Shown one piece after another: positions 23,336-42,133 of a stretch of DNA of 64,000 nt. Every line of letters begins with the position of its first letter. Position 1 is the stretch's first letter. Position numbers and translations under genes: made by a program. Origin of the DNA: Cellulophaga algicola DSM 14237 (GTDB lineage: Bacteria; Bacteroidota; Bacteroidia; Flavobacteriales; Flavobacteriaceae); NCBI RefSeq assembly GCF_000186265.1, contig NC_014934.1, positions 1,116,001 to 1,180,000 of the forward strand. Reading direction: 5' to 3'. The notes under the pieces are model-generated. The model ran no database searches. It was not told the origin of the DNA and was given only the letters and a program-made list of their open reading frames with translations.

Positions 23336-24187
23336 ATGAAACTTTTATCGTTTATATCTATTGCTGTTTTTTTAACAGGTTGTTCCAACTACGGACAGCT
23401 AACCTTTGTTACCAAACTACCTAAAGCCGTAAAAGAAAATTCTGGAATTGCTTATTACGGGAATGAAAAGGCTTGGTTTGTAGAAGATCATGGTAATGAT
23501 GATGTACTATATCAAATTGGTTTTAATGGCAAAATTTTAAAAGAGCTCCGAGTTAAAAATGCTAAAAACCATGATTGGGAAGATTTAACTCAGGATAAAA
23601 AAGGAAATCTTTATATTGGTGATATTGGTAACAATGCTAACGAACGAAAAAATTTAGTTGTTTACAAAGTTCCAAACCCAGAAATAGAGCCTGGAAATAA
23701 AATTGATGCACAGCAAATAGAATTTTATTATCCTGAGCAAAAAGAATTTCCTCCAAAAAAAGATAATTTAATTTATGATGCTGAAGCCTTGTTTCATTTT
23801 AATAATGCACTTTATATCATCACAAAAAACAGATCAGAACCTTTTACTGGAAAAACGTTTATTTATAAAATCCCAGATACTCCTGGAAAATACGCTGCAG
23901 AATTAGTGGGTGAATTTACTCCTTGTGAAACTGCTCGAGTATGTCAAGTTACCTCTGCTACTATTTCTCCAGACGGGAAAAAACTAGTGATCTTAGGGTA
24001 TGGCTTTTTATGGATTTATTCTGATTTTAAAGGTGATGATTTTATTAATGGTAGGTTAAAAACTATTGATTTAGGTGCAACAACGCAAATAGAATCTGTT
24101 TGTTTTAAAGACGACAACACCCTTTTAGTCTCTGATGAAGAGCGCGCTAAAACGGGTCAAAATCTATATTCATATACCTTAAAATAA
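23336..24187 (+). CDS. Lipoprotein, probable beta-propeller, unknown function
   Basis: The 283-residue lipoprotein has lipobox FLTGC (Cys16). Recurrent short beta repeats occur, such as NSGIAYYGNEKAWFVEDHG, HDWEDLTQDKKGNLYIGDIG and DAEALFHFNNALYIITKNR. They suggest a small propeller of the esterase-like or SMP-30-like type. I see no catalytic signature. It is a single gene with a 222-bp upstream region in which I find no clear promoter, and it is convergent with the large phosphoesterase-barrel gene. Function unknown. Confidence 0.75.
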   Translation: MKLLSFISIAVFLTGCSNYGQLTFVTKLPKAVKENSGIAYYGNEKAWFVEDHGNDDVLYQIGFNGKILKELRVKNAKNHDWEDLTQDKKGNLYIGDIGNNANERKNLVVYKVPNPEIEPGNKIDAQQIEFYYPEQKEFPPKKDNLIYDAEALFHFNNALYIITKNRSEPFTGKTFIYKIPDTPGKYAAELVGEFTPCETARVCQVTSATISPDGKKLVILGYGFLWIYSDFKGDDFINGRLKTIDLGATTQIESVCFKDDNTLLVSDEERAKTGQNLYSYTLK

Positions 24188-24209: not shown

Positions 24210-27200
24210 TTAGAATCCAAAGCCTAGCCCAAAAGTAAATCTTGCACCATCTGTACTATTAAAAATAGCTACATTAACAGATATGATATCTGCAGCATTC
24301 AAGAAAAAACCACCCCCATATGAGGTATGCCAAGTATTTGAATCTATTGTAGGAATCCAAACTTTACCATAATCAAACCCTCCATAAATTCCCATGGCTG
24401 TAGGTAAAATATTGGTTCTTTTTTTTCGCAAGCTAAACCTTAGATCTGTATTTTGATAATAGGAAGATTTTCCGGTAAACCGTTGATTTCTAAATCCACG
24501 TAACCCATCTACCCCTCCAATACTAGCCCCTTGGTAAAATTCATAATCATTACCAACAATAAAGTGACCTTTCCATTTAGTAGCTAAGACTAATCTCCCA
24601 TTTGATATTAATTTGTAATCAAAAGACAAACTTGGCACTACGTAAGCAAACCCATTATCGGCGTCATTTAAATCTGTTTTATACCCTAATTTAAGCGCTG
24701 TGGCCATCCCTAAGGTTGGAAATGCTTGGTTATCCTTATTTTCATATGTATATTCTGCTTCCGCACCAATAAAACTATTTCTAGTTTCTTCACCATTGGC
24801 CTGGTAAAATTCATTTACAAACCTATCTGCTGTTTCTTCTACCTCGATAGATTCAATATTAAATCCTGCTTTAAACTTTGCTCCTAATCTACCCCTCCAA
24901 ACTAAAGAGGGAGCAAATTTTACAGTTTCAATACGCACTCTATTATAGTCCATACTAAAATCATCATCAAAGTTTTCCGTGTCATTCCCAAATCCAAAAA
25001 AGTTAATTGAAAAATTTGGACTCGTAAATCGTGCTGCAAGTTCTAAATTCCAGTTTTCAAAAATATGTGCAAATTCCCCGGTATAGGCAACATCATAACC
25101 ACTCGTTGCAAAATAATATGATGCTGCAAGTTCATGTTTCTGTGTAAACGGATTTTGTCTAAACCCGTTATATGTATAGGTATTCTGGAACCCTATCTTA
25201 ACACCATCATCCGGATTAAAACCTAAAGTGGGTATAATCTGGTTTGTACTGGTCCTTATTTTTAAGGGCTGATAGGTATTCACCGTATAATCATCCATCA
25301 GCTTTACCTTAACGCCTTTTACATTTTTAAATGTATTCTCCTTGCTCTTATAATCGTAAATACTAATATTACGTGGTGTCTCTACATCGTATATATCATT
25401 ATTCTGACCTCCAATTAGTCTTACTTTAATTGCATTATTCTTAACTCCTTTTACCTCAAATAAATCATCATCATCTAAACCATACACCCAAATTTCTTTA
25501 GTGGTTTTTTTATTGAAAGTCTTCTCGAAAAACAGCTTCTTCTTTTTATCGCCTATATTTCTGTACGCTTTAATTTCTGTTTCATTTTCATTTATTCTAT
25601 TAATTACAAACCAATCATCCTTATCTGTTCCTGTAACTACTGCAAATTTATTTAGGATGGAAAAATACGTTTCTGCGGTTTCTGTTATTGAAGCTAAACG
25701 GGATAACAAAGTACTTTTAATTTCAGCAACTTTCTCATCTCTTATTTCTTCAGGAAAAGCTAAAAGTGCTTCATCTATAACTGCTGGAGTAATATGTTTC
25801 TTAAGGTAATTAGCTTGTTCTATCCATTCACTTTCCGTAGTCTCTGGTAACAAAGCCATGTCCAAGACATAGGTTTTAGGAGATGAATTAAAGCCTTTTA
25901 CACTTCTAATTTTATCATTAAAACCTTCCATTAATCGCAAACCAGGTATTATACGCGTTGCAATATTCATTAATATACCATCTCCCATTTCTGAGAATAC
26001 TTGATCCCGATCTCTTGGCACTGGTCTGTATACTACTTTTTTGGTATCTTTATCTTTAAATTCTGCCCAACGCCATTGATCTGTGTGCCTATCCCAATCT
26101 CCAATAGCCATATCAAACAAACGTGCTCTAATATAAAGCTTAGTATCTACACTATACTTCTCATCATCTCGTAAATCTTCAAGCATAGAATCTGTACTTT
26201 TCAATTCATCACTATATCCAAAACTTTTTAAATCTCCGTGTCCGTCTCCCGCATGCTCTTCAATCATATACAACTCATCTCCAAAGGTATCGTTGTATTC
26301 TTTTAAGGCAGATTGCTTTGGCACATAATAAAGTACAGGGTTTGTATGGTATAAATCTACCGCATCTGATAAGGTTGCTACTGCAAAAGGAGCAAAAGGA
26401 TGTGCGCCTGTATAAAAATCTTCTAATAATTTTTCAGTATAGGTATCTTTTAAATCATCTGCAATATACTGGTCTTGGAATGCCATGGATTGAAGGTATA
26501 ATTCTGCACTTTTACGAATAGCACGCATTACATATTCTTTACCATTCTTATCTCGTAATCGTAATGATTTAGATTGATGACCCCCACCTTTTTTAACAGG
26601 TTCTAGACCGCCAAATAAGGTATCTATCCTTACCGTTGGGGCAGAAATTTTAGTACCATAATACTTTCGGTATTTTTTTCCCCATATTTTTTCGTGCAAT
26701 TTAGATTTATCTACTTCTTCCGCACTATAAATTGAAGAGCTTACGGTAGCAGGAAAGTTTTCATCATAGATTGTATCATCTAAAAATCTATCTCTTTTCA
26801 ATACTTCAGTACCAAAAAGAAAATTTTCAGATAAATCATCATCCAAGCCATAGAAACGAACCTTTGAGGAACCATCTTTATAAACCTCTAATACAGCATA
26901 CCCCATTTGTCCAGTTGAAAACTCACTACCATTCAGCAATTTTGTATGTCCCTTTTTTGATCCAGAGCCGCTTACAATCTGTGGTGTATTTTTCTCAACA
27001 ATATATTGCAGGGTATGTTCATGACCAGATGCAAAAATTACTTTATCAGAGAACTGAGCTAATGTGGTAATTCTATTACGCAGTTCCCGATACATTTTAT
27101 TGTTATTATCTTCAATAGAAGGTCCCGCTGTTTTCCTAAGCACATTTGCCACGGTACCAAGCACGGGTAAAGGAATATTTTTGTTTGATGGGTACAGTTG

Positions 27201-27923
27201 TTGTTTTAACGTGGTTTGGCCACCGTGAGAACCATAGGTAAACATAGGATGATGCAGCGCAATTATAGTAGTACGCTCGCGATTGTCTTTGATAACATCC
27301 TCTACTTCTAACAAAAATTTGTCTCTACTCTTAATATCGCACTTATCATTAATATCTGGCCGTTTATCCCAATTTGTCAAGTACCACTCTGTATCTATCA
27401 CTACAACCACGACATCATCATTAATCTCAATAGTTTCAATAGGACAGCCGTTTTCCGGAAAAAAGACATCATCACTAGCTAATTTTTCTTGAATATATTT
27501 CTGTTCTCTTTTTAGCCCTACTAGTCCCTCTGTATACCAATCATGATTCCCTGGAATAAAATATTTATTTCCCTTAAAATTAGCTAAGGTTGAAATCTGA
27601 GCATCTAAATGGCTAGCAGCAGTTCTAAAAGCCGAGGTAGAATCTACCGGATCAGGCAAACCAGCTGGATAAATATTATCACCAAGAAAAATGGCAGTAC
27701 TATTTTTATCTGCTTTAGTTAATCTTTCTTTAAAAACCTTTAATGCAGGATTCATACCTCCAATAGGAGACAAACCCGCATCGCCAATCAAATAAAAAGT
27801 ATGCGAAACTTCTTTTGTAGTGGCTGTATCTTGATTGTCGTCTATATTTTTATACTTAGCATGATAAGTAGCACATCCTGAAAAAAACAAAAGAATTACG
27901 ATAAGAGTAAAATGTTTATGCAT
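24210..27923 (-). CDS. Outer-membrane fusion protein: calcineurin-like phosphoesterase, kinase-like region, Omp85-type barrel (copy A)
   Basis: About 1237 residues from the ATG at 27923. An in-frame ATG at 27971 would put 16 residues before the signal and is less likely, because the remaining start gives a clean lipoprotein signal (FFSGC). The phosphoesterase metal motifs are complete: YLIGDAG, FLGDNIYP, PGNHDWY, ALHHPMF and SGHEHTLQY. The middle region has GGGHQSKSLRL, YVMRAIRK, IGDWDRHTDQWRW and PVPRDRDQVF, which look like the nucleotide-loop, Lys, catalytic-loop and metal motifs of an atypical kinase fold. The C-terminal ~400 residues form a barrel with the Omp85 signature GGVDGLRGFRNQRF, ending in Phe. 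Substrate unknown. A paralogue lies at 38402-42133. Confidence 0.85.
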   Translation of the reverse strand: MHKHFTLIVILLFFSGCATYHAKYKNIDDNQDTATTKEVSHTFYLIGDAGLSPIGGMNPALKVFKERLTKADKNSTAIFLGDNIYPAGLPDPVDSTSAFRTAASHLDAQISTLANFKGNKYFIPGNHDWYTEGLVGLKREQKYIQEKLASDDVFFPENGCPIETIEINDDVVVVVIDTEWYLTNWDKRPDINDKCDIKSRDKFLLEVEDVIKDNRERTTIIALHHPMFTYGSHGGQTTLKQQLYPSNKNIPLPVLGTVANVLRKTAGPSIEDNNNKMYRELRNRITTLAQFSDKVIFASGHEHTLQYIVEKNTPQIVSGSGSKKGHTKLLNGSEFSTGQMGYAVLEVYKDGSSKVRFYGLDDDLSENFLFGTEVLKRDRFLDDTIYDENFPATVSSSIYSAEEVDKSKLHEKIWGKKYRKYYGTKISAPTVRIDTLFGGLEPVKKGGGHQSKSLRLRDKNGKEYVMRAIRKSAELYLQSMAFQDQYIADDLKDTYTEKLLEDFYTGAHPFAPFAVATLSDAVDLYHTNPVLYYVPKQSALKEYNDTFGDELYMIEEHAGDGHGDLKSFGYSDELKSTDSMLEDLRDDEKYSVDTKLYIRARLFDMAIGDWDRHTDQWRWAEFKDKDTKKVVYRPVPRDRDQVFSEMGDGILMNIATRIIPGLRLMEGFNDKIRSVKGFNSSPKTYVLDMALLPETTESEWIEQANYLKKHITPAVIDEALLAFPEEIRDEKVAEIKSTLLSRLASITETAETYFSILNKFAVVTGTDKDDWFVINRINENETEIKAYRNIGDKKKKLFFEKTFNKKTTKEIWVYGLDDDDLFEVKGVKNNAIKVRLIGGQNNDIYDVETPRNISIYDYKSKENTFKNVKGVKVKLMDDYTVNTYQPLKIRTSTNQIIPTLGFNPDDGVKIGFQNTYTYNGFRQNPFTQKHELAASYYFATSGYDVAYTGEFAHIFENWNLELAARFTSPNFSINFFGFGNDTENFDDDFSMDYNRVRIETVKFAPSLVWRGRLGAKFKAGFNIESIEVEETADRFVNEFYQANGEETRNSFIGAEAEYTYENKDNQAFPTLGMATALKLGYKTDLNDADNGFAYVVPSLSFDYKLISNGRLVLATKWKGHFIVGNDYEFYQGASIGGVDGLRGFRNQRFTGKSSYYQNTDLRFSLRKKRTNILPTAMGIYGGFDYGKVWIPTIDSNTWHTSYGGGFFLNAADIISVNVAIFNSTDGARFTFGLGFGF

Positions 27924-27969
27924 AGCAGCAAGTAAAGAGTTATAAAATTTGTAATTTGGACTTTTAATC

Positions 27970-29181
27970 ATGATTCATATGAACGACATATTATCCAAAA
28001 CCGAAGAACATGCTACAGAGCTACTGACTAAAAAATTAGATAGCAGCTATTTGTATCATAATCTAAGACACACTCAAAGAGTCGTTAAAAGTACTAAAGA
28101 ATTACTAAACTTTTATAGCCTAAAGGAGGAAGAAAATAACGCAATCACTATTGCTGCATGGCTTCATGACATTGGTTACACCGTTAGCGCTACAGATCAT
28201 GAAGAACACGGAGCTAAACTTGCTAAAGCATTTTTAGAAAACTTAAATTGTGAACAAGGTCTTATAACGACCGTTTGCAGATTAATTTTAGCCACTAAAA
28301 TGGGTCATGACCCCAAAGATATTTGTGAAGAAATTATAAAAGATGCAGATTGTTCGCATTTTGCACAAAGTAGTTACGTAGAAACGTCTGAACTTTTAAG
28401 AGATGAATTAGCCCAGTTAAACATCGCTACTTTAACTAGAAAAGAATGGCGTAATAAGAATATTGAGCTCTTTAGAACGCAACATCATTATTATACCGAG
28501 TATGCCAAAGAAAATTGGCAACCAAAAAAAGACGAAAACTTAGAAGACTTATTAAAGAAAAAAAAGAAAAATAGCAAGCTCGTAAAAAAAGAAGAGTTAA
28601 AAGTTAGCTTAAAAAACAAAAGTCCTGAACGCGGCATCCAAACTATGTTTCGCGTAACCATGCGCAATCATTTAAAGCTAAGTGATATTGCAGATACAAA
28701 AGCTAACATTTTACTATCCGTAAATGCTATTATTATCTCTTTAATTTTAGCCAACCTAATACCAAAACTGGATAACCCCACAAATGATTACTTAGTAATA
28801 CCCGCTGCAATATTTGTTATTTTTAGTGTTGCATCAATGATTATGTCAGTATTAGCTACGCGGCCTAATGTAACGAGTGGCGAGTTTACCAAGGAAGATG
28901 TTGAAAACAAAAAAGTAAATCTACTATTTTTTGGAAACTTTCATAAAATGAAACTAGAGGAATATGAATGGGCAATTCAAGAATTAATAAAAGACCAAGT
29001 ATATGTGTATTCTTCATTGACTAAAGATTTATATTTTCTAGGATTAGTTTTAGATAAAAAATATAAGCTTTTACGCTGGACGTATACTATCTTTATGATT
29101 GGTATGGTACTATCTGTAATTGCATTTTTTGTAGCCTTAAAATTTTATGGACCAGAACGCATCATAGAATTACCTACTTAA
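27970..29181 (+). CDS. HD-domain phosphohydrolase fused to Pycsar-effector (PycTM-like) membrane domain
   Basis: The 403 residues divide in two. Residues ~25-200 are an HD domain: RHTQ (His34), WLHDIGYT (His66-Asp67), HEEHG, ATKMGHDP and KDADCSHF. The C-terminal ~180 residues begin MFRVTMRNHLKLSDIADTKA and carry hydrophobic segments near 240-260, 268-290 and 377-397. This is the pattern of the PycTM (DUF5706) domain, known from Pycsar anti-phage effectors. A Lys-rich linker joins them. It is divergent from copy A with starts 46 bp apart. No pyrimidine cyclase or CD-NTase gene is in the window, so a defence role is only a possibility. A start at 27979 is also possible. Confidence 0.82.
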   Translation: MIHMNDILSKTEEHATELLTKKLDSSYLYHNLRHTQRVVKSTKELLNFYSLKEEENNAITIAAWLHDIGYTVSATDHEEHGAKLAKAFLENLNCEQGLITTVCRLILATKMGHDPKDICEEIIKDADCSHFAQSSYVETSELLRDELAQLNIATLTRKEWRNKNIELFRTQHHYYTEYAKENWQPKKDENLEDLLKKKKKNSKLVKKEELKVSLKNKSPERGIQTMFRVTMRNHLKLSDIADTKANILLSVNAIIISLILANLIPKLDNPTNDYLVIPAAIFVIFSVASMIMSVLATRPNVTSGEFTKEDVENKKVNLLFFGNFHKMKLEEYEWAIQELIKDQVYVYSSLTKDLYFLGLVLDKKYKLLRWTYTIFMIGMVLSVIAFFVALKFYGPERIIELPT

Positions 29182-34355: not shown

Positions 34356-36740
34356 TTAAATTTCAAACTCTTCAATTAGGTCTTCATAAGTATACATTTT
34401 ATCTGTGCTCACTGCTGTTTCAGAATCTTTAACAGAATACAAAATATCTGCTCTAATAGCTTTTAATCCTGCAACACCTTGAAGACCTTCTAATTCTACT
34501 ATTTCTAGTTTTCCGCTAAAATAGCCTTTAGATTTTAAGAATTTTATATACCGAAGGTATTCTAATTCATCACTTTTTTGAGCGTATACTATGACCATTT
34601 TACCTGGCTCTGTTATACGCTTATTTGTCCCTTTTATATATGACTTATCAATACGTTTTTTAATGATTTCATACCTGGCATTATAAGTACCATCTACATC
34701 AAAACGTTTTTCATCCATTCTAAAACGAATAGCTAAAGACGTATTGTACACTAGCATTAATGATGCTACATCAAGCGGAACAGAAAGCTCTGGCTTTAAA
34801 TTATAGTGCTTATTTTCCATTTCGCACATAATCTGCAATTGCCACAACCTTAAATTACTTAAATAAAGCGAATCAAACTTTTGATCATCTACTATAGAAG
34901 CTCCTATGTACATATTGTGTTCTACACCATCTGTCTTATAACGTTCAAAATAATGCGGAAACATTGCCTGTGCATCTTTCTGTTTTTTATCAATCACAGC
35001 AGATAGCTTTTTGTTAATCATCATAACACTTTCATCATAATTTCTACGATGATCGTAATATGACTTTGTTCCCATATCAATGCTAGATTCATATGAAATA
35101 ATCATTTGAAGCAATTCTTTATCCTGATTTTTTAAATGCTCAAAAACGGGCACAATTTCATTTTGAACAAAATTAAATACCGCTTGCTCACTGTTGGTAT
35201 TTAGCAATTCTTTTACCTCATCAATATAATTGCTGATTCTAAATATTAACTCTTCATAGATGGGTAATTTATTTTTTTGCCATGCAAATTCTAATACCTT
35301 ATTAATTTCAGATAGCTGAATCATTATATCTCGCTGAATAGCTGTATTTCTAGCTAAAGAAGAATCTTTTATATCTATTTGTCCATAAAGAGGATACACA
35401 TCTTTAAAAACAATTTCTTTAAATGAAGGTTGTCTATCTTCTAATCCATCAACAATAAAACGCTTAGCTTCCTCTCTAAATTTCCAATATACCGAGGAAT
35501 GTACAGATGTACACTCGTTTTGAATAATTGCATCAATTCTATTTTCTTCCTCAGACATAGAACGCAGTACTCCCGTGACAATAAACGGCATAATATCTTC
35601 TAGCTTATTAGCATTTACACTATTAAGTCCGTTTTTCTGTGTAGATACTAACTCTAATACACCCAATAAGTTTCCTTCAGAAGCTATAGGTGCAAAAATC
35701 ACACTTTTAATCCCTTGCTCTTTAAGGCTCTTATAAGGCATAATACCTCCAGAAAGTTCAAAATATTTATCCACATCAGAAATAGAAAAATATCCATTTT
35801 CAGTCAAAAGCTTACTATACGAAGATTGACAAAGTGCCTCTTTACAAGCCTCTACTTCCTTATCTTGAAGTATAAAACTCTCCAAGCCAACACCAAATAC
35901 TTTTTCAAATTGATCTTTCTTAGGGTTATAGGTTACAAAACCAGCACGTATATCTGGAATACTAAAAAAGGATTTAAAGGTTTCCTGCAAGTTGTACATG
36001 AAACTCTCGCTCCCTCTTTTATCATTAGCAATTAAACTAGATTTTATTTCAGAAATAGCATGTTCATTGGTAACATCAAACATAGAAGAAATTACAAAAC
36101 CTTTACCAATAAAACTTTGTGGAGGAAATTTCTCTTGCCACAGTGCTAAATTGTCAAAATTCTCTAAAAGCTCATCAATATCTTCTTTAGATAAATTTTT
36201 CGCTTTTTCTGTTGGAAGAATCTCCATAAAATCAGCATTATACAAAATGCGATAATGACGCATAACCCCATTTTTATCAGGTATATCGTAAAAAAAAGGT
36301 CTTTTAAAATCTATAGAATACCCATAATGTGCACTTAGAATAATAGTACAGGTCATTATATATAAATGATGATCAGGAAAATCACGAAGGTGTGGTAAAA
36401 ATTCTTTTCCTCCAGCATTTTCTAAAATTCTTTTAAATCTTTCTGAAGAATTAAAAACCACATTATCAAATGGTAATGAAGCTGTTTTTATTTCATTGTT
36501 GGTTAATACCTCCGAAAAGGTGTCTTGTAATATAATTTTAATGACATTTTTATACTTTTTAAGTAATGAAATATCAGTAAAACCTTCTCGCAATTCCGGA
36601 TAAGGTGCCTGAGCAGCTAATATATGCTTAGCCTTACTAGCCAGATAACTATCGTCACTTTGAGCCATGGCATCATATTGCTTTAATATTTCATTAAAAC
36701 TAATCATCTGACTAAGTGGTGATTGCAACTTATCTATCAT
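34356..36740 (-). CDS. Large GAF-domain protein of unknown function (~794 aa)
   Basis: From the ATG at 36740 (MIDKLQSPLSQMISFNE). The longer in-frame start at 36791 would add MWIFFCNFTG, which looks unnatural. Residues ~240-400 read as a GAF domain (FKSFFSIPDIRAGFVTYNP, GIKSVIFAPIASEGNLLGVLELV). The flanking ~230 N-terminal and ~380 C-terminal residues are helical and match no domain I know. No histidine kinase, GGDEF or HTH signature is visible, so the output is not obvious. It is a single gene, divergent from the LpxH-like phosphoesterase and convergent with the glutamate dehydrogenase operon. Likely a cytosolic sensor; role unknown. Confidence 0.8.
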   Translation of the reverse strand: MIDKLQSPLSQMISFNEILKQYDAMAQSDDSYLASKAKHILAAQAPYPELREGFTDISLLKKYKNVIKIILQDTFSEVLTNNEIKTASLPFDNVVFNSSERFKRILENAGGKEFLPHLRDFPDHHLYIMTCTIILSAHYGYSIDFKRPFFYDIPDKNGVMRHYRILYNADFMEILPTEKAKNLSKEDIDELLENFDNLALWQEKFPPQSFIGKGFVISSMFDVTNEHAISEIKSSLIANDKRGSESFMYNLQETFKSFFSIPDIRAGFVTYNPKKDQFEKVFGVGLESFILQDKEVEACKEALCQSSYSKLLTENGYFSISDVDKYFELSGGIMPYKSLKEQGIKSVIFAPIASEGNLLGVLELVSTQKNGLNSVNANKLEDIMPFIVTGVLRSMSEEENRIDAIIQNECTSVHSSVYWKFREEAKRFIVDGLEDRQPSFKEIVFKDVYPLYGQIDIKDSSLARNTAIQRDIMIQLSEINKVLEFAWQKNKLPIYEELIFRISNYIDEVKELLNTNSEQAVFNFVQNEIVPVFEHLKNQDKELLQMIISYESSIDMGTKSYYDHRRNYDESVMMINKKLSAVIDKKQKDAQAMFPHYFERYKTDGVEHNMYIGASIVDDQKFDSLYLSNLRLWQLQIMCEMENKHYNLKPELSVPLDVASLMLVYNTSLAIRFRMDEKRFDVDGTYNARYEIIKKRIDKSYIKGTNKRITEPGKMVIVYAQKSDELEYLRYIKFLKSKGYFSGKLEIVELEGLQGVAGLKAIRADILYSVKDSETAVSTDKMYTYEDLIEEFEI

Positions 36741-36853
36741 ATCTTCATTGGTCGTTATCGAGCCTGTAAAATTACAAAAGAAAATCCACAACTTTAGTAT
36801 TTAGATTTGTTTAGATACCTTCGTTTTTTAGAACTTTACATAAACACAAAATT

Positions 36854-37747
36854 ATGTCTTCAAGCACAAGACTTTCACGAGCGTATGAAAATGCCAAAAC
36901 GGTACCTTTTGATGATGATTCAAAATTTATCTTGTTTAGTGATTGTCATCGTGGAGATAACAGTTTTGCCGATGATTTTGCGAATAATAGAAACATCTAT
37001 TTCCATGCCTTACAGTATTATTTTAAAGAAGGCTATGAATATTTTGAATTAGGTGATGGCGATGAGTTATGGGAAAATTCAAACTTCGAATCTATATTTA
37101 ACGCTCATAAGAACGTATTTCAATTGCTACGGGAGTTCCATATTCGTGGGAGATTGCATATGATTTGGGGCAATCATGATATGGTATATAAAAGTGATTC
37201 CTATGTAAAGCAGCAGCTAAGTAGCTATTTTGAACCTATTGAAGGTTGTGAGAAAGAACTTTTTCAAGATATTACCTATAATGAAGCTATTGTTTTAAAA
37301 CATAGAAAGACCAATCAGGAAGTATTTTTAACCCATGGCCATCAAGCAGACTGGTGGAATTATACCTTTTGGCGCTGCGGAAGGTTTCTAGTGCGCGTAT
37401 TATGGAAACCATTACAAGTCTGGGGTATTGCAGATCCTACCAGTCCCGCAAAAAATTATACGGAATTAATCAAAATTGAACGCCGCATAAAAAGGTGGAT
37501 TGTTAAAAATAATTTACTAATCACCATCGTAGGACACACGCACAGACCACGTTTTCCAGAACCCAAAGACATTCCTTTTTTTAATGATGGTAGCTGTGTA
37601 CACCCAAGAAGCATTACGGGTTTAGAAATTGAAAACGGCAAAATTTCGTTAATCAAATGGCATATTTCTACGACTGAAGATGGTACACTTAGAGTGGTAC
37701 GCGTACTTTTGGAAGGACCTCAAAAATTAAGTGATTATAAGAGCTAA
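36854..37747 (+). CDS. Calcineurin-like metallophosphoesterase (LpxH-like)
   Basis: The 297-residue cytosolic protein has all five metallophosphoesterase motifs: LFSDCHRGDN, LGDGDELWEN, IWGNHDMV, LTHGHQADWWN and IVGHTHRPRF. The GDxxE spacing and late GHTHRP resemble the UDP-2,3-diacylglucosamine hydrolase (LpxH) branch. However, the protein is about 50 residues longer and the true lipid A enzyme cannot be assigned from sequence alone. It is divergent from the GAF gene (starts 113 bp apart) and converges, 3 bp away, with the PepSY-like lipoprotein gene. Confidence 0.88.
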   Translation: MSSSTRLSRAYENAKTVPFDDDSKFILFSDCHRGDNSFADDFANNRNIYFHALQYYFKEGYEYFELGDGDELWENSNFESIFNAHKNVFQLLREFHIRGRLHMIWGNHDMVYKSDSYVKQQLSSYFEPIEGCEKELFQDITYNEAIVLKHRKTNQEVFLTHGHQADWWNYTFWRCGRFLVRVLWKPLQVWGIADPTSPAKNYTELIKIERRIKRWIVKNNLLITIVGHTHRPRFPEPKDIPFFNDGSCVHPRSITGLEIENGKISLIKWHISTTEDGTLRVVRVLLEGPQKLSDYKS

Positions 37748-38401: not shown

Positions 38402-41400
38402 ATGCATGCATCTTTTAGAAAGAATACTACTCAATATTTAAGTGTTACACGCTTAATAGCCTATCTTATTTTTATACTATTTTTAAATGGGTGCGCTACT
38501 TTTAAAATGCAAGAGACAGATGAAATTAAGGATTCAAAATCAACTTCTAAAACACCTGTTCATACCTTTTTTCTTGCAGGCGGTTATGGAGACTACACCA
38601 TTACTGAAAACAAAACTGCCGCTACACTTTTAAAAAAACAGTTAGCCAGCGCAGATAAAAACACAACACTTTTATTTACAGGAGATAATATTTCTGCAAC
38701 CACTAAAAACTGGAACACAGATAAAGAATTAATTCAAGAGCAAATTGCTTTAACGGAAAATTTTAAAGGGAACACTATTTTTATGCCAGGCGTTAACGAA
38801 TGGAAAAGCTACAACACGCGTGATGTAGAAAAAGTGGAAGAATATTTAGACTCCGTTGATTCTGATGCGCTAAAATTCTTTCCTAAAAATGCCTGCCCTA
38901 TTGAGCATATTATAATCAATGATGATTTAGATTTAATATTAATTGATTCTAAATGGTTTACAGGCAATTGGTCTAGATTAGAAAATATAAATAAAAAATG
39001 TACCGATATAAATACCCGAATGCGCTTTGCTGAAGAATTAGAGGGCTACATTAATGACGGACAGGGTAAAAATATTGTGATTGCCATGCACCAACCAATT
39101 TTTAGCAACGGGGAGTTTGCGGGTAAAAAATCCTTTAAATCACATATGACTCCAGCGCCAATTGTAGGCACCGTAGTAAACACCGTATTAGATTTAGGGG
39201 CTTTTTCCTCAGACCTTTTAAATGCAAGACCTTATGAATATTTAAGAATATTAGTTAGCTCACTTGCCAAAGCATCAGATAGAATAACTGTTGTCTCTGG
39301 TCATGAAGAGAGCTTACAATATTTAACAGGGGGAGGCATTCATCAAGTAATTAGTGGTTCGCTCAGTCAAAAATCGGCTACGAAATTATCTAAAGATAAT
39401 CTAAGTAGTATTGGCGGAACACTAGATTTTGAAGGCAAATTTACCTATGGAAAAAAGGGTTTCGCAAAACTGGTGTATTATGAAGATGGTTCCTCCGAGG
39501 TAACTTTTGTTACCGAAGATGATGATGAAAAAAATATTTCCATACTTCCCAGCTTACAAAAAGACACCACATCTGTAACATTTTCTAAGAACCAGGCAAA
39601 AACCATAAAAACAAGTATTATTAAAGATACTGATGCCATAAACAAATCAGATTTTTACACCTTTTTATGGGGACAACGGTATCGTTCTTATTTTGGAACT
39701 CCTGTTACCGCAAAAATCGCACAGTTAGATACCCTTTATGGCGGACTGAAAGTACTTAAAGAAGGAGGAGGTCATCAATCATTCTCAGTTAGACTTGCTG
39801 ATAAAAATGGAAAAGAATACAATATGCGTTCCTTAAGAAAAAACGCTTTAAAATATTTAAAATTTAAAATTAAGGGAGTGGCTTATAATGAAAACGATTA
39901 TAAGAATACGCTAACCGAAGAAACTATTTCAGATTTCTTTACCACCGCTCATCCCTATATGCAATTAGTAATTAATCCGCTGGCCAAATCTATAGGCTTA
40001 AACCACTCAAGTCCTGAATTGTTTTACATTCCAAAACAAGAAACTTTAGGAGATTTAAATAATGAGTTTGGAGATGAACTTTATTTCATTGAAGAAAGAC
40101 CTTCAGACGAGCAATTAAATCATAAGGGCTACCGAAGAGAAATTGATGAATCTGGCGAAATAACAGACTTTGAGAGTACAACAGATATGCTCGAAAAAAT
40201 TAAGAGTGATGAATCTTACAGTGTTGACCAACGAGCTTATATAAGAGCCCGTATTTTTGATATGCTAATTGGCGATTGGGACCGGCATGAAGATCAATGG
40301 CGTTGGGTAGAATATGAAACAAATGATGGGAAAAAAGAATTTCAACCGGTACCAAGAGATCGTGATAATGCATTCCCCAAATTTGATGGCAAGGCCTTAA
40401 AAATAATTAAACTATTTGCTGCAGACTCCAGGATGTGGCAAAATTATGACGCCGATATTCAAGATGTAAAATGGTTAAATAATAACGGGAACAGTCTAGA
40501 CAGAGCTATTTTAACTAAATATGATGCTAAAACCTGGGAAGAAGAAGCCAAATTTATCCAAGAAAATTTAACGGAAGCTAAGATTGATGCCGCTTTTAAC
40601 AATTTACCGAAAGAAGTTAAAGATTCTACTGCCGTTGAAATAAAAGATAATTTAAAATTGCGCTTAATGACTATCAGACAGGATGCTAAAGCCTATAGTA
40701 AGTATCTAGATAAAATGGTTTCATTACACGGTACTGAGAAAGATGATAAATTTGAAATTACAAGGTTACCAAATGGTGAAACAAAAGTTGTTATTAAGAG
40801 AATACTTTCTGACAAAGAGAACCCAATAATATTTGAACGTACTTTTAATAAAAAGGATACTAAAGAATTATGGCTGTATGGTTTGGGCGATGATGATGTT
40901 TTTGAAGTTACAGGAGATGCTAATAAATCTATTTTTATACGCTTTATTGGCGGCTATGGAGATGACAAATTTAATATTCAAAATAAAAAGAATTTAAAAG
41001 TTTACGATTGGAAACATGAGACTAGTGTTTTTGAAGGAGAGCAACCAAAAAAACAATTGACCAATCTTTATGATACAAACATGTACCATTGGCGTTATTT
41101 TGAAGAGAATTCTAATATGCTTATTCCTAATATAGGTTTTAGAACAGATGATGGGCTTTACATAGGTGCTACAAATATTTACACAAACAAAGGGTTTAAT
41201 CGTAATGGTTTTAGACAAAAACACAAGATTGTTGCTAATTACTATTTTGGCTTTAAAGCTCTTGAACTAGGTTATTATGGTGTTTTTGCAAATATATTCC
41301 CTAAATGGAATTTTGAAATTAGCGCCTACCACTCTACTGATCGATTCTCAAACAACTTTTTTGGAATAGGAAATGAAACTATTAATTTGGATGATGATTT

Positions 41401-42133
41401 AGATAAAGATTTTAATAGAGTTAGAATTGAAAAAACAAGGTTTGATGCGGGTATTGCTTATCACACTTTAAAAATAAAAGGTGTGTATGAATCTTTTGAG
41501 GTTATTGAACAAAACAACCGCTACTTAAATTCTGATAATTTTCAACCTGAATTGTTTGACAACCAACGTTATTTAGGAATAGAAACCGAAGCTTACTATG
41601 ATAATGATGATGCTAAAGATTTTCCTTCAAGATCAATTATGTTTGGATTGAATGCTGGCTACAAGGCAAATATGCAAATAAATGACAATCAATTTGGGTA
41701 TTTAAAGTTTAAAACAGGCATTAGCCACAAACTTATATCTTCCGGCGATTTGGTTTTGAGTACAAAAGCAGAAGTGAGTACTACTTTCGGAGACACATAT
41801 TTCTTTTACAATATGCCGTCTATAGGAGGGAACAATGGGTTGAGAGGTTTTAGAGACGAACGCTTTACTGGAAAAACTTATTTCTATGAGACAACAGATT
41901 TACGCTTTAGAATTAAAAAATATATGACTCCGGTTGCTCCAATAAACGTTGGTGCATATGGAAGTTTTGATTATGGTAGGGTGTGGAATAAAAATGAAAG
42001 TTCAAACGTTTGGCATACTTCACAAGGTGTAGGAGTATGGGCTAGTGCTTATAATTTTTTAACCTTAAATGTTGGATACTTTAATTCTGTTGAGGGCAAC
42101 ATAGTGCAATTTAAATTTGGTTTTGATTTTTAG
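38402..42133 (+). CDS. Outer-membrane fusion protein, degenerate phosphoesterase, kinase-like region, Omp85-type barrel (copy B)
   Basis: This 1243-residue paralogue of the protein at 24210-27923 aligns by eye along the whole length. It has a lipobox LNGC (Cys31). The phosphoesterase domain keeps its outline but loses most metal ligands: LIGDAG is LAGGYGD, GNHDW is GVNEW, ALHHP is AMHQP and SGHEHT is SGHEES. Only the GDN motif remains. The kinase-like motifs are kept (GGGHQSFSVRL, YNMRSLRK, IGDWDRHEDQWRW, PVPRDRDNAF), as is the barrel with GGNNGLRGFRDERF and a terminal Phe. It is intact, not a pseudogene, and looks like a pseudo-phosphoesterase. A coiled-coil lipoprotein gene follows 67 bp later. 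Confidence 0.85.
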   Translation: MHASFRKNTTQYLSVTRLIAYLIFILFLNGCATFKMQETDEIKDSKSTSKTPVHTFFLAGGYGDYTITENKTAATLLKKQLASADKNTTLLFTGDNISATTKNWNTDKELIQEQIALTENFKGNTIFMPGVNEWKSYNTRDVEKVEEYLDSVDSDALKFFPKNACPIEHIIINDDLDLILIDSKWFTGNWSRLENINKKCTDINTRMRFAEELEGYINDGQGKNIVIAMHQPIFSNGEFAGKKSFKSHMTPAPIVGTVVNTVLDLGAFSSDLLNARPYEYLRILVSSLAKASDRITVVSGHEESLQYLTGGGIHQVISGSLSQKSATKLSKDNLSSIGGTLDFEGKFTYGKKGFAKLVYYEDGSSEVTFVTEDDDEKNISILPSLQKDTTSVTFSKNQAKTIKTSIIKDTDAINKSDFYTFLWGQRYRSYFGTPVTAKIAQLDTLYGGLKVLKEGGGHQSFSVRLADKNGKEYNMRSLRKNALKYLKFKIKGVAYNENDYKNTLTEETISDFFTTAHPYMQLVINPLAKSIGLNHSSPELFYIPKQETLGDLNNEFGDELYFIEERPSDEQLNHKGYRREIDESGEITDFESTTDMLEKIKSDESYSVDQRAYIRARIFDMLIGDWDRHEDQWRWVEYETNDGKKEFQPVPRDRDNAFPKFDGKALKIIKLFAADSRMWQNYDADIQDVKWLNNNGNSLDRAILTKYDAKTWEEEAKFIQENLTEAKIDAAFNNLPKEVKDSTAVEIKDNLKLRLMTIRQDAKAYSKYLDKMVSLHGTEKDDKFEITRLPNGETKVVIKRILSDKENPIIFERTFNKKDTKELWLYGLGDDDVFEVTGDANKSIFIRFIGGYGDDKFNIQNKKNLKVYDWKHETSVFEGEQPKKQLTNLYDTNMYHWRYFEENSNMLIPNIGFRTDDGLYIGATNIYTNKGFNRNGFRQKHKIVANYYFGFKALELGYYGVFANIFPKWNFEISAYHSTDRFSNNFFGIGNETINLDDDLDKDFNRVRIEKTRFDAGIAYHTLKIKGVYESFEVIEQNNRYLNSDNFQPELFDNQRYLGIETEAYYDNDDAKDFPSRSIMFGLNAGYKANMQINDNQFGYLKFKTGISHKLISSGDLVLSTKAEVSTTFGDTYFFYNMPSIGGNNGLRGFRDERFTGKTYFYETTDLRFRIKKYMTPVAPINVGAYGSFDYGRVWNKNESSNVWHTSQGVGVWASAYNFLTLNVGYFNSVEGNIVQFKFGFDF

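Follow-up and report, generated by a model that had tools for sequence, protein, structure and literature searches.

A paralogue with a degenerate phosphatase domain and a preserved kinase-like domain in a family of predicted outer-membrane barrel proteins of Bacteroidota

Two paralogous genes in the window

We analyzed a 64,000-nucleotide stretch of the Cellulophaga algicola DSM 14237 genome (contig NC_014934.1 of assembly GCF_000186265.1, positions 1,116,001 to 1,180,000), hereafter the window, in whose numbering all coordinates are given. It holds two related genes, copy A and copy B, the sole copies of their family found in the 4.89-Mb genome. Copy A (24210..27971, − strand) encodes 1253 amino acids and carries, in this order, a purple acid phosphatase (PAP)-like domain with a full ligand set in the Pfam and human enzyme alignments described below (26814..27812, −), a kinase-like domain (25602..26768, −), and a BamA/TamA-type barrel; both of its sites are intact. 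Copy B (38402..42133, +) is an ATG-initiated open reading frame (ORF) of 1243 amino acids with a lipoprotein-like N-terminus, a PAP-type pseudo-metallophosphoesterase domain, a kinase-like domain, a linker, and a barrel of the same type.

All elements of copy B lie on the + strand. A putative lipoprotein signal (38402..38494), recognized by inspection and with a regular expression, ends at Cys31 (LNGC); the lipobox-like sequence of copy A places the cysteine at position 33. The degenerate phosphatase domain (residues 50–385, 38549..39556) is followed by the kinase-like domain delimited with AlphaFold2 and Foldseek (residues 390–786, 39569..40759), which includes the catalytic-loop motif GDWDRHEDQWRW (residues 624–635, 40271..40306) and a PRDRD motif near the position of the kinase DFG aspartate (residues 651–655, 40352..40366). 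A beta-rich linker with a GLGDDD motif, defined from the secondary structure of the predicted model (40760..41071), leads to the barrel (41072..42130).

Copies A and B align end to end (487 of 1253 positions identical, 39%, 876 bits), making B an intact full-length paralogue of A, as the first-pass annotation of this DNA had proposed. Identity is 37% in the phosphatase domain, 42% in the middle domain, 40% in the linker, and 42% in the barrel, and the contrast between the copies thus sits in active-site residues rather than in overall conservation. The middle-region motifs and the barrel signature had been described as almost unchanged, which holds for the motifs GDWDRHxDQWRW, PVPRDRD, and GLRGFR but not for the domains as wholes.

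Loss of phosphatase ligands in copy B

To map the ligands, a profile of 23 intact copies was aligned to the human tartrate-resistant/purple acid phosphatase (TRAP). The profile matched TRAP at 6.7e-9, with the GDxG, GDNxY, GNHD, AGHYP-like, and GHxH blocks aligned, and residues were assigned to metal site 1 or site 2 according to what we take to be the biochemistry of TRAP. Copy A has the complete PAP ligand set and the catalytic histidine and matches Pfam Metallophos (PF00149) at 3.7e-8, and all ligands are intact in the 17 A copies of the genus. Copy B has no Pfam match at E up to 1. In the numbering of copy A, it carries the substitutions D64G, Y101S, N142V, H143N, D144E, and H319E and retains D98, H240, and H317. 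It therefore lacks four of the seven metal ligands (D64, Y101, and H319 of site 1 and N142 of site 2) together with the catalytic His143 of GNH, leaving the PAP set incomplete.

The four changes from A to B quoted in the first-pass annotation (LIGDAG to LAGGYG, GNHDW to GVNEW, HHP to HQP, and GHEHT to GHEES) were all found. They had been read as changed metal ligands, which is correct at D64, N142, and H319; the HHP to HQP change is no ligand loss, as the TRAP alignment puts the ligand at the first histidine, retained in B. A further loss had been missed, that of the tyrosine of GDNIY, replaced by serine. D144E was rejected as a sign of inactivation, since GNHE also occurs in seven intact copies, counted in an earlier, motif-filtered ORF set that predates the filter-free classification given below, as do the tree step counts and the tandem-array and lipobox observations.

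A conserved clade of B-type copies

B-type copies were found in six of the 18 genomes of the genus (74–100% identical to the window copy) and in other genera, including Arenibacter, Zeaxanthinibacter, Croceivirga, Gelidibacter, Allomuricauda, and Maribacter. Among the 79 loci whose neighborhoods are described below, 13 of B type have a best-segment identity of 48–64%, and one in Flavobacterium is further removed (L088, 44%). On a midpoint-rooted tree of 216 members, built from motif-filtered ORFs before the filter-free classification and excluding the copy in L042, the B clade comprises 28 members (support 0.94), 22 of them outside the genus.

Within this clade, D64 is replaced by Gly (27/28) or Asn (1/28), Y101 is Ser in 21 members and never Tyr (one of the 28 shows a gap), and at H319, 22 members have Glu and none has His. 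All 28 carry Glu at D144, and H143 is Asn in 20 and retained in four. N142 is retained in 12 members, D98 in 25, H240 in 26, and H317 in all 28. The ligands had been thought lost one by one; D64, Y101, and H319 are gone across the clade, and it is the site-2 residues that are patchy. Chance is unlikely to account for these changes, as D64, Y101, and H319 are altered in 28/28 while the 17 A copies of the genus are intact.

We then compared selection per domain, as had been suggested for this pair. Among the six B copies of the genus, pairwise dN/dS (nonsynonymous to synonymous substitution rates) was 0.04–0.17 in the phosphatase domain and 0.04–0.08 in the middle domain, compared to 0.03–0.07 in the phosphatase domain of A, with dS often near or above 1 and sometimes undefined. 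The ratio was far under 1 in every domain of B, indicating purifying selection over the whole gene and ruling out gene decay, and the ORF has no internal stops in any of the six B-carrying genomes. In 16 genomes with both copies, B diverged 1.50-fold relative to A in the phosphatase domain (117/120 pairs), 1.10-fold in the middle domain (83/120), 0.97-fold in the linker (45/120), and 1.18-fold in the barrel (84/120), pairs that are not mutually independent. Judged from these divergences, the easing appears confined to the phosphatase domain of B and is not the decay of a gene.

A separate class C of the genus (L026–L029) has most phosphatase ligands altered and the kinase motifs retained but no lipobox. 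Genomes G008 and G010 each carry A, B, and class C.

The kinase-like domain and the barrel

The middle domain was modeled with AlphaFold2 on 80 sequences (mean pLDDT 91.6). A Foldseek search of the model against the PDB gave CtkA (1.1e-5) and HipA (6.6e-5) as top matches, with PI4KII (1.6e-3) and the Fam20 Golgi casein kinase (3.6e-3) lower among the best 50. The 16 matches at E up to 0.001 are all named kinases or HipA, save entries titled MDT protein, which we take to be HipA. At a threshold of E up to 1, five of 80 middle-domain members matched Pfam Fam20C, the best of them at 9e-4. The predicted structure supports a HipA/CtkA/Fam20-type kinase-like fold, in agreement with the kinase guess made earlier.

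The DRH loop aligned to CtkA, and DRH, DRD, and the invariant Arg87 and Lys91 of the domain are present; they are putative equivalents of the catalytic Asp, the metal-binding residues, and the nucleotide-binding Lys or Arg of kinases, on the basis of that alignment, at E 0.3. The Asp and His of DRH, the Gln, and both Asp of DRD are retained in 246 of 261 homologous ORFs and in the five aligned separate membrane-anchored relatives.

Separate kinase-like relatives of ~423–457 amino acids (L188, L189, L190, L191, L192, and L311) have one N-terminal hydrophobic segment and the motif GDWDRHAKQWG. Those scanned (L188, L189, L191, and L192) gave nothing at the Pfam cut-off.

In the full-length model (pLDDT 87.8), Foldseek matched the barrel to BamA (1.5e-9) and TamA (6.5e-9). 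NCBIfam Omp85_fam matched the C-terminus of both A and B (4e-15, 56 bits, under the 200-bit cut-off), and the two proteins have the BamA/TamA-type C-terminal barrel that defines the Omp85 superfamily. Pfam and NCBIfam scans gave no match to POTRA repeats before the barrel in A or B; the Omp85 subfamilies include members without an N-terminal extension, according to the text available from Heinz and Lithgow 2014 (PMC4104836). From Omp85 topology, we infer that the soluble domains face the periplasm.

Reciprocal losses among homologues

To classify homologues without a motif filter, we collected 261 distinct ORFs from stop-to-stop stretches of 700 codons or more, after removal of 66 duplicate or contained ORFs; the motif-filtered set had missed kinase-degenerate copies (L042 and one in L068). 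Both sites are intact in 167 ORFs, 67 have a degenerate phosphatase and an intact kinase-like site, and 13 have an intact phosphatase and a degenerate kinase motif. In 12, the phosphatase is absent or truncated and the kinase-like site intact, and in two, the phosphatase is absent and the kinase motif degenerate. These proportions are not population frequencies, as multi-copy genomes were deliberately sampled, and in the initial genome screen at most four candidates per genome were scored among the matches listed. None of the 247 ORFs with both domains scored had both sites degenerate. A Fisher test on the 2 × 2 class table (p 0.022) ignores relatedness and was not relied on.

On the 216-member tree, eight changes are required for the phosphatase site and one for the kinase site. 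The kinase-degenerate copies on it form a single clade with 12 members, whose sister clade (support 0.88) holds six kinase-only copies, and the L042 copy, outside the tree, looks like a second kinase loss. Across six matched genomes, kinase-degenerate copies were compared to their kinase-only sisters: divergence was 2.06-fold in the middle domain (15/15 pairs), 0.73-fold in the phosphatase domain (0/15), 1.73-fold in the linker, and 1.10-fold in the barrel. The domain whose site is lost thus appears to be the one that accelerates. The conserved middle region had been proposed as what matters in both copies; the excess of eight over one site changes agrees with a core of middle domain plus barrel, but the clade of 12 and L042 show the opposite pattern. 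Such opposite losses suggest a division of the kinase and phosphatase jobs among sister proteins. Reciprocal inactivation had not been foreseen and is the more interesting result.

Complementary classes stand in tandem in several genomes, for example as kinase-only, phosphatase-only, and kinase-only genes in L168. Arrays of this kind, with two or three family members whose active-site losses complement one another, were seen in L168–L172, L174, L176, and L179.

Complementation was mapped over 93 genomes. A phosphatase-degenerate, kinase-intact copy occurs in 51 of them, and in all 51 an intact phosphatase site is found elsewhere in the genome, in a bifunctional copy (38 genomes) or a phosphatase-only copy (13 genomes). 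As bifunctional copies occur commonly in the family, the 38 are weak evidence; the informative genomes are the 13. All 13 carry a kinase-only copy and no bifunctional copy was recovered in any, though for one of them, G097, a further third match is listed that is not among the recovered copies. No intact phosphatase site was present among the recovered copies of G077 nor of G123 and G141, whose genes are cut by contig ends. The co-occurrence of active and inactive copies in one genome, which had been put forward as a check, was found in all six B-carrying genomes of the genus as well as in the 51 of the wider set. The earlier idea of a putative regulatory or substrate-binding pseudoenzyme partner is supported as far as it concerns a pseudo-phosphatase domain joined to a kinase-like domain that is intact, in a gene kept by purifying selection and accompanied by a copy whose phosphatase site is intact.

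Distribution across Bacteroidota

In a sample of 296 genomes from the whole phylum, a profile of the kinase-like domain matched 111, and 20 stretches from those 111 were examined. Seven have both domains in one protein (L303, L304, L305, L310, L312, L313, and L314). Seven others (L296, L297, L298, L306, L308 with two genes, L309, and L315) encode kinase-like proteins of 795–941 amino acids with no phosphatase match; all eight of these proteins have an Omp85 model match with an E-value of 9e-15 or better, under the cut-off. Five stretches (L299, L300, L301, L302, and L307) have kinase-domain proteins of ~500–560 amino acids, one ORF being trimmed to 396, and the two of these that were scanned, from L299 and L307, gave no NCBIfam match. 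The remaining stretch, L311, has a 423-amino-acid membrane-anchored form. In L299 and L300, a PAP-like gene (cut by the stretch end in L300) adjoins a lipoprotein-like kinase-domain gene on the same strand, and these adjacent genes appear to be a natural split of the fusion.

The PAP domain was also searched in 24 genomes, 20 of them outside the family and picked for a short kinase-domain ORF. Seven matched, including the known carriers G459, G336, and G093; the four outside the family were G326 (1e-77, a separate gene on another contig) and, weakly, G232, G424, and G434. Because kinase-barrel proteins across the phylum often lack this phosphatase, the kinase-barrel unit is the core of the family, with the phosphatase as an optional partner.

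Neighboring genes

Copy A is flanked by a divergent gene for an HD-PycTM protein (27970..29181, +) and by a gene for an SdiA-regulated-like protein below the Pfam cut-off (23336..24187, +), both conserved in A-type loci, as is an 811-amino-acid protein with no Pfam match at E up to 0.01 (34356..36791, −). Immediately upstream of copy B lies a stand-alone Metallophos gene (36854..37747, +), which adjoins B in all six B-carrying genomes of the genus.

We sampled 79 neighborhoods, 14 of B type and 65 not. Within the examined stretches, the 65 non-B loci contain homologues of HD-PycTM (59), the SdiA-like protein (54), and the 811-amino-acid protein (53). An HD-PycTM homologue is present in seven of the 14 B-type loci, directly beside B in L060, L065, L070, and L071 and apart from it in L061, L062, and L068, where in L062 and L068 it adjoins the other copy. 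In whole-genome searches, A and B each had an HD-PycTM neighbor in G167, G172, G177 (with two B genes), and G178; this membrane protein is thus co-duplicated next to some B genes. The link of HD-PycTM with the family is real but partial.

A further HD-PycTM gene lies beside a separate kinase-like gene in G178:C9.

Interpretation

Starting from the observed ligand loss, its conservation, the predicted fold class, co-occurrence, and reciprocity, we lean, if only slightly, toward reading copy B as a kinase-type paralogue that belongs to a family of phosphatase-kinase-barrel proteins in the outer membrane of Bacteroidota, with a dead phosphatase and a competent kinase. The barrel would anchor B in the outer membrane with its soluble domains toward the periplasm, and the phosphatase domain would be catalytically dead yet retained as a selected module. 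The kinase-like domain would stay competent, and A would hold both activities. Next to A, B would then add kinase with no opposing phosphatase and might shift the balance on a putative shared envelope substrate. Some other lineages have, in place of the bifunctional gene, tandem copies that are kinase-only or phosphatase-only, a replacement suggesting that the two activities bear on one substrate or pathway. A wider proposal, which we offer tentatively and consider rather doubtful as a whole, is an envelope phospho-switch of Bacteroidota: an opposed PAP and kinase, barrel-anchored and facing the periplasm, split after duplication among sister proteins by reciprocal inactivation, coupled through co-duplicated HD-PycTM membrane partners, and needing a phosphate donor outside the cytoplasm.

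Several findings weigh against this reading of B and its family. Foldseek TM-scores are ~0.2–0.5 among the best 50 matches, the sequence match to CtkA falls short of significance (E 0.3), and, to our knowledge, no ATP is expected in the periplasm. Among full-length proteins, kinase loss amounts to two events only, so reciprocity rests mainly on one clade. In the shorter proteins of L181 (G093) and L182 (G077), the phosphatase domain is missing and the kinase motif is degenerate, which breaks any rule that no protein has lost both functions, and G077, a genome within the family, has one copy in which neither site is recognizable and no PAP match. Sixteen of the 20 genomes outside the family with a short kinase-domain ORF gave no PAP-type match; pairing is hence not obligatory, and the idea that kinase and phosphatase are always paired is refuted. 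Within the B clade, the catalytic-His position is preserved in four of 28 members and N142 in 12, and for these members phosphatase inactivation is less certain than it is for the window copy.

The kinase-like domain might instead be no kinase but a fold for ligand binding or scaffolding that serves the barrel in lipid or protein insertion, the phosphatase being an optional accessory and B a version without it. The BamA/TamA-type barrel, the kinase-barrel proteins of the phylum that have no phosphatase domain, the lack of expected periplasmic ATP, and a loop Gln where HipA and PI3K presumably have Asn would all fit. We nonetheless consider this unlikely, as a scaffold would not need the DRH, Gln, and DRD residues kept in 246/261 ORFs and in all five membrane-anchored relatives, and the whole middle domain accelerates in the clade that has lost its kinase residues.

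It seems more improbable still that the phosphatase domain of B is alive with altered ligands, Glu at H319 joining D98, H240, and H317 in a one-metal or different reaction. Such a site would agree with the Glu in 22 of the 28 clade members and with the largely retained site 2, but the site-1 Asp and Tyr are gone from all 28 and the catalytic His from 24, Val occupies N142 in the window copy and three close species, and the window copy has no Pfam match. A pseudogene in the making, which the faster evolution of the phosphatase domain of B relative to that of A might suggest, is highly improbable given the uninterrupted ORF in six of six genomes of the genus, the carriage of B by several genera, and dN/dS far under 1 throughout.

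If both activities of the favored reading hold, a reversible phosphorylation system would lie inside an outer-membrane barrel protein, in a place where ATP is not expected; with sister proteins that are naturally kinase-only or phosphatase-only, it would then be testable gene by gene.

Comparison with known systems

In their motif blocks, the intact copies can be aligned with purple acid phosphatases such as TRAP (6.7e-9) and partially with GAP50 (4.6e-4). The family adds to this phosphatase the fusion with a kinase-like domain and a barrel, and B differs from TRAP in lacking the site-1 ligands and the catalytic His.

The middle domain resembles the HipA, CtkA, PI4KII, and Fam20 kinases in its predicted fold and in the DRH loop aligned to CtkA. 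The family differs from them in its envelope location and barrel fusion, and its loop presumably has Gln at the usual Asn position and DRD instead of a DFG-type motif.

The architecture of an N-terminal PF00149 domain fused to an Omp85 barrel is already in print as the Omp85/TpsB 'Metallo' subfamily (Heinz and Lithgow 2014, PMC4104836). Copy A shares its PF00149 domain and barrel; in copy B, the PF00149 signature is gone and PF00149 gives no match, but B aligns with A over its full length and may be a degenerate member by descent. The available text of PMC4104836 labels PF00149 a metalloprotease domain and does not contain the word kinase; the Pfam name of PF00149, unlike that label, is Calcineurin-like phosphoesterase. 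A partial survey of the literature, in which subscription journals were barely covered, gave no description of the kinase-like domain, the pseudo-phosphatase paralogues, or the kinase-degenerate class.

TamL, finally, is described in the accessible texts of PMC4494059 and PMC12045153 as a TamA-like Omp85 lipoprotein of Bacteroidota, found in operons with TamB (PMC4494059), and Omp85 lipoproteins bear POTRA domains according to the text available for PMC4104836. Copies A and B resemble TamL, as so described, in their Omp85 barrel and likely N-terminal lipid; they differ from it in that phosphatase and kinase-like domains, and not POTRA domains, precede the barrel.

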